64,000 bases of DNA, taken from NCBI RefSeq assembly GCF_005860805.1, contig NZ_VCEJ01000002.1, positions 1,906,375-1,970,374 of the forward strand, written 5' to 3'. The position numbers were made by a program, and so were the translations under genes. Position 1 is the first letter of the stretch, and every line of letters starts with the position of its first letter. The notes beneath the pieces are model-generated. The model was not told the origin of the DNA, ran no database searches, and was given only the letters and a program-made list of their open reading frames with translations. Source of the stretch: Dyadobacter luticola. GTDB taxonomy: Bacteria > Bacteroidota > Bacteroidia > Cytophagales > Spirosomataceae. Of the stretch, positions 1,884 to 3,718 are shown one piece after another.

Positions 1884-2015
1884 TCAAAGAGTTTCCACCA
1901 AATCCGCAATCGTTTTCATCGGCAATATCATTTTTGCGGAATCAGAAAGCGGCACAAAACCATAACCGGCGTAAAACTTTTTTGCCCGCTCGTCAATAGG
2001 ATCAACGGTTATCAT
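1884..2015 (-). pseudogene. C-terminal remnant of a GNAT acetyltransferase toxin
   Basis: A 43-residue open frame encodes what looks like only the last part of a GNAT toxin of the kind paired with DUF1778/RHH antitoxins. The strings VDPIDERAKKFYAGYGFVPL and MILPMKTIADLV match the closing strands of such toxins (typically 'VD..DE.A..FYE.FGF.P', then 'LFLPM.TI'). The acetyl-CoA binding region is absent, and the frame is blocked by a stop a few codons upstream of its ATG. It begins one base after the stop of the HTH gene at 2017-2316, so it sits exactly where a partner toxin would be expected. It is most likely a decayed or recombined relic. Confidence 0.65.
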
Positions 2016-2016
2016 A

Positions 2017-2316
2017 TTACTTCCATCCCATTTCTTTTTTCAATTCATCAAGTGTCACGAAGTCCTTTTCTTTTTCAACTTTTTCCATGACTTTGCCGAG
2101 ATAGAAATCTTCTAACTCTTCATTATCAATGATCGCGAGGATTTTTTCGACCTCTTCAATAGTCCAGCTACCACGCTTTTTTTTAACTGAAAAATTGGGT
2201 GACGGAATGCCCAGCTTTTCTGCGATATATGAATTTTTGTAACCTGAATGTTTAATGAGCATACCAATGTTCTGTCTTAGTTCTTTGTAGTTCGCAACGA
2301 TCTTCAACATTGACAT
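2017..2316 (-). CDS. HTH-domain antitoxin-like protein (paralog of 3270-3563)
   Basis: This 99-residue protein has a helix-turn-helix core (about residues 18-60: NIGMLIKHSGYKNSYIAEKL, then a basic KKKRGSW turn) and an acidic tail ending in LDELKKEMGWK. It is clearly a paralog of the protein at 3270-3563: the regions around NYE/NYK, SGY+N, EKLG/KKLG, IDNE and the KEMGW terminus align without gaps. That paralog overlaps a RelE/ParE-type toxin gene, so this one is probably also an antitoxin or autorepressor. Its own downstream slot holds only a GNAT-toxin fragment. The intact frame suggests it is still expressed or was orphaned recently. Confidence 0.7.
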   Translation of the reverse strand: MSMLKIVANYKELRQNIGMLIKHSGYKNSYIAEKLGIPSPNFSVKKKRGSWTIEEVEKILAIIDNEELEDFYLGKVMEKVEKEKDFVTLDELKKEMGWK

Positions 2317-2677
2317 AATTTCCGTTTTTAGTAAATTTTGCTAATTAATTTTACCAAAAATACTAACATGGATTTTTATTGTCATTACGATCTCGGAAAT
2401 ATTAAATTGTAAAAACCTACCCGAACTACAAATATCAACACTCAAACTGTAAGTTTTTCTACCGTTAGTTCAACCAAACCGACCGCAGGAAAAGCGAGAT
2501 CGAAATGGTTTTTTAGACTCAAATATCATTTCTAACTTTCAAGTGCGACTTAAAAAAAAAACCAATTGAAATCACAAATATTGTTTCAAAACATACCCGA
2601 CAGAGAGCAGGTGAAAGTCCTGGCCTACTTGGTTTTTGTAGTCGCGCCACTGTCGGGTTTCACTTAAACTATCTTTT
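2317..2677. other. Intergenic region between divergent HTH and symE-like genes
   Basis: This 361-base AT-rich gap separates the divergent HTH gene (minus) and the SymE-like gene (plus). It holds poly-A stretches, a 25-base sequence that recurs near 59536, and a strongly structured segment at 2595-2658 described separately. No further open frame is convincing. Read on the minus strand, 2447-2494 could encode a short PAVGLVELTVEKL-like string reminiscent of linkers before T9SS sorting domains, but it is too short to call. Confidence 0.6.
2595..2658 (+). promoter_or_regulatory. Structured leader resembling a minimal cobalamin-riboswitch core
   Basis: Nine bases at 2595-2603 pair perfectly with 2650-2658 (ACCCGACAG with CTGTCGGGT). 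Inside are two hairpins: CAGG/CCTG (2608-2611 with 2619-2622), closing a TGAAAGT loop, and CTAC/GTAG (2625-2628 with 2638-2641), closing a nine-base loop TTGGTTTTT. The strings GGTGAAAGTCC and CGCCACTGT match, from memory, the most conserved parts of cobalamin riboswitches (the P4 loop and the B12 box), and ACAG/CTGT sits where helix P3 would be. The usual GGGAA and an obvious P6-P13 region are not seen. The element ends 19 bases before the ATG at 2678. Ligand binding is not shown; a non-ligand RNA switch is equally possible. Confidence 0.5.
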
Positions 2678-2908
2678 ATGCGATCGTCTCAAAAACCAAC
2701 AACCGAACCCAAAACATTCAAACTAAAACGCCCGGAAGTACGCAGTTTGAAAATTCAGCCGAAAACACGGTTTAATGTTTATGAAGAAAAGCAGGTACCG
2801 GAAATCAAATTATCAGGCGAGTGGCTGCGAAACCTTGGTTTTCAATCCGGCGAAAAAGTAAAAATCACTACCATGAATCAACTGCTGATCATTCAGCCTT
2901 TTGAATAA
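2678..2908 (+). CDS. SymE-like type I toxin family protein
   Basis: This 76-residue basic protein has a C-terminal SymE domain (about residues 46-74: PEIKLSGEWLRNLGFQSGEK followed by VKITTMNQLLIIQ). SymE proteins have an AbrB-like swapped-hairpin fold; E. coli SymE is an SOS-linked, RNA/nucleoid-associated toxin controlled by an antisense RNA. The N-terminal third is a lysine-rich, low-complexity extension. The gene stands alone between two HTH-antitoxin loci and has a structured leader whose apical loop is complementary to codons 5-8. No Shine-Dalgarno sequence is visible. Whether it is toxic or a domesticated regulator cannot be told from sequence. Confidence 0.75.
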   Translation: MRSSQKPTTEPKTFKLKRPEVRSLKIQPKTRFNVYEEKQVPEIKLSGEWLRNLGFQSGEKVKITTMNQLLIIQPFE

Positions 2909-2997: not shown

Positions 2998-3279
2998 TCA
3001 CTTCGGAGGAAAAGCATTGTAAAACCCACCTCTGACCGCAACCATAATGACAACTAAATCAGGGTGGACATACTCAATTCCCATCCGGTATTGGCCAATC
3101 CGAATACGGTAATAGTTTCCGCCCGGCCTCTGCCCTTCCATTTTGAGATAGTCAACATTCGCTGTCTCCAAACTATCCGAATTTCTTAGCGAATCGAGTA
3201 CAGATTTGATAGCTAACTGAGCTTTGGCGGGAATGCTTTTTAAGTCTTTGAGAAATCTCTTCTTATAGATTATCTCCAT
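2998..3279 (-). CDS. RelE/ParE-family toxin
   Basis: This 93-residue protein has the RelE/ParE toxin layout: an N-terminal strand and two helices (KKRFLKDLKSIPAKAQLAI), a central YYRIRIGQYRMGIEY strand pair, and a C-terminal strand with the basic residue AVRGGFYNAFP. Such toxins cleave ribosome-bound mRNA (RelE) or poison gyrase (ParE); the sequence does not decide which. Its start lies inside the end of the upstream HTH gene, with an overlap of about 10 bases, the arrangement expected of a translationally coupled antitoxin-toxin pair. It is intact and of normal length. Confidence 0.82.
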   Translation of the reverse strand: MEIIYKKRFLKDLKSIPAKAQLAIKSVLDSLRNSDSLETANVDYLKMEGQRPGGNYYRIRIGQYRMGIEYVHPDLVVIMVAVRGGFYNAFPPK

Positions 3280-3563
3280 CCCATTTCCTTGTAAAGCTCG
3301 TCGTGACTTATGGTATCATCGTCCTTTCTTGCCTCCATTTCCTGCATTAACCAAAAATCACTAACATCTTCATTATCAATAATTGAAGCTAGCTTTTTAA
3401 GTTCTTCAAGAGAAAAACTTTTGCGGTTTTTTTTAGCTGAAAAATTGACATTGCTCAATCCCAGCTTCTTCGCCAGGTAGTCATTCCGGTAACCCGAAAC
3501 CTCGATCAGTTCTCCGATATTCATAATGAATTTCTCGTAATTATTTACAATTTCAGTTATCAT
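3270..3563 (-). CDS. HTH antitoxin paired with the RelE/ParE-type toxin
   Basis: This 97-residue protein carries a helix-turn-helix core (about residues 17-60, IGELIEVSGYRNDYLAKKLG with a following KKNRKSF turn) and an acidic C-terminal tail (ARKDDDTISHDELYKEMGWR) likely to wrap the toxin. I chose ATG 3563 rather than 3626 because the protein then aligns end to end with its paralog at 2017-2316, and the extra N-terminal residues look non-coding. It overlaps the toxin gene by about 10 bases. Autorepression of the pair is expected from the family but no operator was identified. Confidence 0.75.
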   Translation of the reverse strand: MITEIVNNYEKFIMNIGELIEVSGYRNDYLAKKLGLSNVNFSAKKNRKSFSLEELKKLASIIDNEDVSDFWLMQEMEARKDDDTISHDELYKEMGWR

Positions 3564-3718
3564 GACTTTGGAACGTTCGAGTCTTTTTGTATCAATATCG
3601 ATACGAATATGTTCATAAAAATACACAAAATGTTGTCTTGAATAAAAAATTTCCGAAATCCGCTCCCCTGCCTTACCTTTAAAAACCGAAAAACTCTTAC
3701 AGAAAAACCAACATTCCT

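Follow-up and report, generated by a model that had tools for sequence, protein, structure and literature searches.

What kind of RNA precedes the SymE-family gene of Dyadobacter luticola, and what would it do to the expression of that gene? In the window, by which we mean the whole 64,000-nt stretch of DNA that was analysed, the gene lies at positions 2678–2908 of the forward strand and encodes a 76-aa protein matching Pfam PF08845 (SymE_toxin) at 45.8 bits, against a cut-off of 29. The original prediction had placed a cobalamin-riboswitch-like leader in front of it, folded as a three-way junction with an apical loop able to pair with the symE coding start, and all of the strings that it named were found in place. 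The closing stem, P1, consists of ACCCGACAG (5′ strand, 2595–2603) paired with CTGTCGGGT (3′ strand, P1′, 2650–2658), and between the two strands lie the P4 hairpin CAGG-UGAAAGU-CCUG (2608–2622), with a T-loop-like loop, and the P5 hairpin CUAC-UUGGUUUUU-GUAG (2625–2641). GGTGAAAGTCC at 2610–2620 is the sole match in the window at up to one mismatch (0.86 expected by chance), CGCGCCAC is located at 2643–2650, and the loop TTGGTTTTT at 2629–2637 is complementary to AAAAACCAA at 2691–2699, both strings being where they had been reported. The latter nonamer has five copies on the forward strand of the window (2557, 2691, 3703, 46409 and 59330); the copy at 3703 had been noted before, and that at 2557 had been overlooked. 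The copy at 2557 belongs to a second site complementary to the leader. We designate as A the start-codon region of symE (2679–2699; UGCGAU at 2679–2684 plus AAAAACCAA at 2691–2699), as B the antisense segment of the leader (2629–2646), and as A′ the upstream site (2544–2565; TGCGAC...AAAAACCAA), which resembles the symE start and is complementary to B as A is. The first base of A is the U of AUG. B stops immediately ahead of NCAC, the final four letters of the conserved string CGCNNCAC (2643–2650), a string that covers the last letters of B and the first of P1′. A′ was selected by eye because it resembles A, and the promoter region was visible during this choice. All of these elements are on the forward strand.

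Homologous loci were collected in several searches. Searching 48 genomes of the genus at the protein level yielded 46 SymE matches, spread over 28 genomes; 31 loci were read, namely 30 of these matches and L003, the remaining 16 being covered by the R1 model search only. The leader motif was present in five of the 31 (L001, which is the window's own locus, L004, L005, L006 and L007), and the covariance model R1 was built from these five. R1 found the leader as a single copy in the window's own genome, and gave accepted matches in 5 of 222 genomes of the family (8 with any match), in 5 of 390 of the order (6 with any match; two new genomes with loci L042–L044) and in 4 of 395 of the class (5 with any match; three new, L045–L047). 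When a DNA pattern was run over a genome collection of 84,980 species, 39 stretches were obtained, of which 16, including L078, were judged real, five of them being loci already known from the model searches. The total is 22 distinct Bacteroidota leader loci, in hosts that include Dyadobacter crusticola, Sphingobacterium, Olivibacter, Ferruginibacter, Chitinophagaceae, Cyclobacteriaceae and Sporocytophaga; these loci are related, and counts across them are not counts of independent events. A SymE reading frame adjoins the leader in 21 of the 22, and L065 has the leader and an A′ site without a SymE frame in the downstream stretch read. Three of the 21 frames are damaged or unusual: that of L043 is cut short, L044 has no ATG and has lost the 5′ arm of P1, and L078 has ATA. 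Low-scoring model matches at L038–L041, L048, L118 and L121 were set aside as leaders (in L041 and L118 the T-loop string is present and CGCNNCAC is missing; the others lack the T-loop string as well), and L057 and 22 other stretches of the 39 from the pattern search were set aside as chance, as were four viral matches.

The association was also viewed from the side of the protein. A SymE profile gave 25 matches in 395 genomes of the class. The leader accompanies the four that score 112 bits or more, and the 21 others, all at 65 bits or less, lack a leader of their own; this score gap is partly built in, the four leader-bearing proteins having been members of the profile. A SymE fragment (L113) lies 1.2 kb downstream of the L045 leader. 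As regards phage carriage, a search at the protein level found no viral relative, and as regards plasmid carriage, one plasmid record contains a distant SymE (41% identity). Just upstream of the leaderless SymE paralogues L002, L009 and L011, a divergent HTH-like gene appears by eye to be present, which may represent another mode of control.

Alignment of 21 leaders (L044, with the 5′ arm of P1 gone, was left out) showed that 98.2% of the cells in P1 and P4 are paired, that 8 of the 13 pairs contain changes on both sides, in 39 cells, and that the covariation score was reached by none of 500 shuffles. In P4, the four pairs are formed in 100% of the cells over the 21 sequences, two of them with changes on both sides, and RNAalifold, run unguided, recovered the same P1 and P4 helices. 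The invariant letters include GGTG-AAGTCC (P4), GAG (end of P1) and CAC (start of P1′), and CGCNNCAC is conserved in the alignment, L078 differing. Every one of the 22 loci allows a P5 hairpin of at least 3 bp (a weak one in L065); this count was made without a control. Single-sequence folding of 2595–2658 (z = −2.28) kept the outer 9-bp stem and dropped the T-loop hairpin, and that of 2580–2720 gave z = −0.28; folding alone is therefore weak evidence for a three-way junction. As regards the junction proposed originally, the stem and the T-loop hairpin covary in homologues, but the minimum-energy fold does not contain the hairpin. Taken together, the alignments indicate that the leader is a conserved folded RNA with covarying stems.

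The assignment to the cobalamin riboswitches was not borne out, as no Rfam cobalamin model matched the window or the eight homologous loci scanned. At gathering level no Rfam family matched the window, and the cobalamin families had no window match at gathering thresholds and none at E up to 10 in 2400–2950; eight homologous loci were likewise negative for them at E up to 5. Over the window's own genome, RF00174 at E up to 1 detected only C3:299519–299719 (L032), at 103.1 bits and above the Rfam cut-off. This genuine-looking switch elsewhere in the genome is a positive control for the negative result at the leader, and the identification was rejected on the grounds that the covariance models fail at the leader, whereas RF00174 works elsewhere in the genome. 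In cobalamin riboswitches, the P4 hairpin carries GGUGNAANUCC, and the junction letters are GGGAA and CGCNACUG. Compared with this consensus by eye, the leader has a GAGARC-like flank of P4 and CGCNNCAC on the 3′ side, only B lies between P5 and P1, and further aptamer helices are absent. The string GGTGNAAGTCC is invariant in the 21 aligned leaders, for part of which this motif was itself the search pattern. We take it to be a T-loop-type hairpin, and such a hairpin explains the string common with cobalamin switches. A minimal or divergent cobalamin riboswitch with its L5 loop pairing with the coding start could claim this hairpin, as well as loop pairing to an expression region further downstream, comparable to L5–L13 in the cobalamin switches treated in PMC9600662; in view of the missing model matches even under permissive settings, the sole RF00174 match of the genome being elsewhere, the different junctions, the absence of the peripheral helices between P5 and P1 and the adjoining SymE frame in 21 of 22 loci, we regard it as scarcely credible. 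The GGTGNAAGTCC string can thus mislead, being present here without any cobalamin model match, and the leader is best read as a candidate RNA family with no Rfam 15 match here.

The proposal that the loop can pair with the SymE coding start was upheld: the complementarity of the inner segment is kept across the homologues as the sequences change. At positions 1–17, ungapped, B:A is 92.2% paired in 21 loci, against 74.3% ± 1.5 with the letters dealt anew and 37–50% in slid controls, and B:A′ is 80.2% paired in 19 loci, against 64.1% ± 1.6 with the letters dealt anew. Swapping A among loci with dissimilar B (174 swaps) lowered the pairing of positions 6–17 from 89.7% to 52.1%, and swapping A′ (148 swaps) lowered it from 73.7% to 42.8%, the first five A′ positions being omitted from the swap test and kept in the 1–17 count. 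Mean duplex energies were −25.5 (cognate) versus −11.1 kcal/mol (swapped) for B:A, and −20.4 versus −9.3 kcal/mol for B:A′. In a scan of ±700 nt, no site surpassed A as partner of B in 18 of 21 loci, the exceptions being L001, L005 and L078; A′ ranked first or second in 15 of 19, the exceptions being L001, L004, L006 and L058. The B:A duplex of L046 has 19 bp unbroken and the A′:B duplex of L045 has 18 bp including two G-U, and in L078, where the UGCG core is replaced in A′, B and A, B still pairs with both, with one core mismatch to A. Two of the A′ sites are weak, that of L004 being equalled by 2 of 8 swapped partners and 16 of 300 shuffles, and that of L058 by 2 of 7 and 22 of 300. The window copy is weak as well: A ranks fourth and A′ third by energy within ±700 nt, and the pairing of B with either needs an internal loop. 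The window's own loop–coding pair is therefore not outstanding by energy, and the evidence beyond chance comes from the other loci. With regard to the original prediction, the homologues thus display both covarying stems and a retained loop–coding complementarity, and the partner is the symE coding start as proposed; the pairing, however, extends beyond the nine bases of the loop and takes in the start codon, and A′ offers B a further partner. These comparisons indicate that B is conserved in its complementarity to A and to A′.

The position of A′ relative to the promoter suggests where this second partner would stand in the mRNA. A predicted Bacteroidota −7 promoter box, TAACTTTC, with five of six consensus letters, lies at 2533–2540 in the window and places the predicted +1 at 2545, about 135 nt ahead of the symE ATG. 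If the G of A′ is taken as +1, all of the 19 loci except L007 have a −7 box at −12 to −5 (18 of 19), and at other positions the rate is 35 of 3971; the count of 18 is not blind, as A′ had been chosen with the promoter region in view. The box has the form TAnnTTTG, with at least five of the six letters, in 16 loci, and TAnnTTGY in L004 and L005. Its spacing is as reported for Flavobacterium psychrophilum (PMC9723704), and on account of this spacing A′ is the predicted first stretch of the mRNA. Upstream of the promoter, a CCGTTAGTT(N)ACCCATC-like element was seen by eye in four loci of the genus (window, 2462 onward; L004, L005 and L006).

A′ at the predicted +1, and the likeness of A and A′ within each locus, are also what might be seen if these sites were DNA operators, with SymE, an AbrB-fold protein assigned to the AbrB superfamily in PMC1891008, repressing its own promoter through TGCGA repeats at A′ and A that are inverted at B. 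Against this, B belongs to an RNA structure that covaries, its changes go along with those of A over as many as 19 bp, and operators need no long, locus-specific complementarity. The counter-evidence from G-U pairs alone is modest (53 G-U versus 26 A-C in cognate pairs; 478 versus 366 in swapped pairs), and of the 98 positions at which A and A′ are unlike, 34 retain pairing in both, versus 25 expected, a difference compatible with either level, RNA or DNA. As a whole, operators appear an improbable explanation.

An antisense function of B can be compared with SymE/SymR of Escherichia coli, the same toxin family, in which SymR, encoded opposite symE, is described as an antisense RNA that covers the start and represses SymE (PMC4147584), a complementary RNA being aimed at the symE start codon (PMC1891008, PMC4147584). 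Whereas SymR is a separate RNA from the opposite strand, the antisense segment here is inside the leader of the predicted mRNA itself, and it has a second target at the predicted 5′ end. A reverse −7 box, CAAANNTA, occurs in 5 of 21 loci, at a common position only in L058 and L083, and a SymR-like antisense RNA transcribed from a promoter of this type was set aside as a candidate, no reverse box being shared beyond these two. The locus has type I features, a SymE family match (toxicity being putative) and an RNA complementary to the toxin start in 21 loci, but in cis. B might nevertheless act in trans, if a processed or prematurely ended leader served as a small antitoxin RNA binding A′ and A of other symE transcripts, so that the 5′ UTR of the toxin would itself encode a type I antitoxin. 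B is antisense-RNA-like in being G/U-rich (260 of 374 letters) and inside a closed stem, both complementary sites are on the predicted mRNA, L065 retains the leader and the A′ site without symE, and a reverse −7 box at a common position was seen in L058 and L083 only; yet no stand-alone leader accompanies the single copy in the window's own genome, and a cis-linked partner makes action in trans needless. We consider such action rather unlikely.

The module, its covarying stems, both complementarities and the promoter geometry are all contained in the sequences. We propose, with a probability of about 0.6, that the start codon of a type-I-like SymE toxin mRNA is hidden by its own leader through strand exchange. 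Transcription would start at the predicted position 2545, so that the mRNA opens with A′, and P1, P4 and P5 would display B. In cells, B would pair with A′ or with the start-codon-bearing A, never with both; A′:B and B:A have B in common in sequence and would be mutually exclusive, the 5′ end being predicted only. We infer the order of events from the order of synthesis: A′ and B would be transcribed before A, and A′:B could form first. Once A had been made, the B:A duplex, the stronger one in 15 of 18 loci, would usually take over and block translation. Since B:A is usually stronger and buries the start codon, the settled mRNA would be OFF. Reopening of the start would require a signal, for which binding of a ligand or protein by the T-loop core, processing of the 5′ end and ribosome occupancy of an upstream ORF are candidates.

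Folds were computed without pseudoknots, P1 beside A′:B or B:A being possible only as a pseudoknot. For the nascent RNA up to P1′, A′:B appeared in the minimum-energy fold of 10 loci out of 18, and P1 in that of 8. For the RNA extended to +45 of symE, B:A was present in 15 of 18, with the first eight bases of the start region 13–19% unpaired; L005 and L078 had A′:B instead of B:A, and the window copy (L001) kept P1, with the start 61% unpaired. As an extension of the strand-exchange proposal, it is conceivable, as a tentative suggestion, that the leader represents a new class of Bacteroidota regulatory RNA, in which a T-loop aptamer-like domain senses a signal and makes B switch from a “decoy start codon” at +1 to the real SymE start or back. 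If this were true, toxin and RNA antitoxin would be fused in one transcript, scattered over the phylum and outside the RNA families searched.

The upstream ORF deserves consideration of its own. In the window it has a TTG start and runs through the structured leader (2566–2667, forward strand; coding putative), its stop codon ending 10 nt ahead of the symE ATG. An ORF with an NTG start passes through P1 in 17 of 18 loci versus 7.4 expected after spacer shuffling, and one with an ATG start in 15 of 18 versus 4.5 expected. The ORF opens 17–46 nt into the predicted mRNA and overlaps the symE start out of frame in 15 of 17 loci, those of L001 and L006 stopping before the symE ATG; two different frames relative to the RNA are used, and L078 has no such ORF. 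A conserved upstream peptide was rejected, as no codon-position bias was found in the homologue spacers: differences at positions 1/2/3 numbered 76/64/76 of 280 each in eight loci and 7/18/12 of 60 each in four further loci. Hok is opened by coupled translation of an overlapping upstream ORF, Mok. Similarly, ribosomes on the upstream ORF could melt B:A and open symE by coupling, with the RNA structure tuning the process. The excess of ORFs through P1 (15 of 18 with ATG; 17 of 18 when GTG and TTG are included) and the out-of-frame overlap speak for this account; the lack of codon-position bias, the use of two frames, the missing ORF of L078 and the early stops in L001 and L006 speak against it, and as a self-sufficient explanation we consider it very improbable. 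The ORF is possibly a means of ribosome coupling rather than a proven gene, and such coupling could be the trigger step of the strand-exchange mechanism instead of an alternative to it.

A further locus was found after the hypothesis had been formed. The model R2, run over 395 genomes of the phylum, gave matches in three, two of which (G000 and G1110) were accepted, and a search of 60 relatives of G736 gave no further accepted leader. In L116, found with R2, the box TATATTTG stands four bases ahead of GCGAAACG, and reading of the sequence identified, besides an A′ site, B as GTTTGTCGTTTCGCA and A as TGCGAAACGACAAAC, forming 15 bp, with an ATG upstream ORF and CAT for CAC. L116 resembles L080, is only partly independent and is excluded from all counts. 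In L119, from the same genome as L116, the T-loop is altered and the contig breaks off 45 nt past the match. L043, L044, L065 and L119 are damaged copies, which fits the expectation for a toxin module under turnover.

Several other reading frames surround symE in the window. Next to symE, a ParE-like toxin is encoded at 2998–3279 on the reverse strand (PF05016, 25.3 bits; cut-off 23), and upstream of it lies an antitoxin-like ORF at 3270–3560 on the same strand, with an HTH_26 score of 19.3 bits, below the cut-off of 22. The ORF at 2017–2316 (reverse strand) is an apparent paralogue of the latter, with 71% nucleotide identity over 87 bp; no ParE-like ORF is listed beside it, and symE is located between the two antitoxin-like copies. 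A short frame at about 1890–2010 (reverse strand) looks by eye like the end of a GNAT acetyltransferase, has no Pfam match and is possibly a broken gene.

Among known toxin mRNAs, those of hok and aapA3 (PMC6733600) and of timP (PMC11228461) are described as using alternative folds, with alternative leader structures, one of which hides translation initiation, and with the involvement of elements at the 5′ end. The present leader differs from these in its T-loop domain, its Bacteroidota host and the lack of an Rfam family match, and in that a single segment, B, serves two targets resembling each other, one at +1 and one at the start codon. The abstract of a 2025 article (PMC12390103) states that type I toxin-antitoxin systems had been found only in Proteobacteria, Firmicutes and Tenericutes, and seven putative type-I-like pairs are mentioned for Bacteroides thetaiotaomicron in PMC7366714. 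No such SymE leader appeared in the titles or opening lines of the abstracts of the best-matching open-access papers on SymE, including SymE in Bacteroidota, or on riboswitches together with toxin-antitoxin systems. The two alternative partners of B suggest a new way of keeping a toxin gene off. If the strand-exchange reading is true, it would provide a candidate RNA family with transcript 5′ ends predicted to the base, and co-transcriptional strand exchange would be testable in a short natural leader. Bacteroidota would then silence SymE in a way of their own, with the antisense segment in the leader and the first bases of the mRNA mimicking the start codon.
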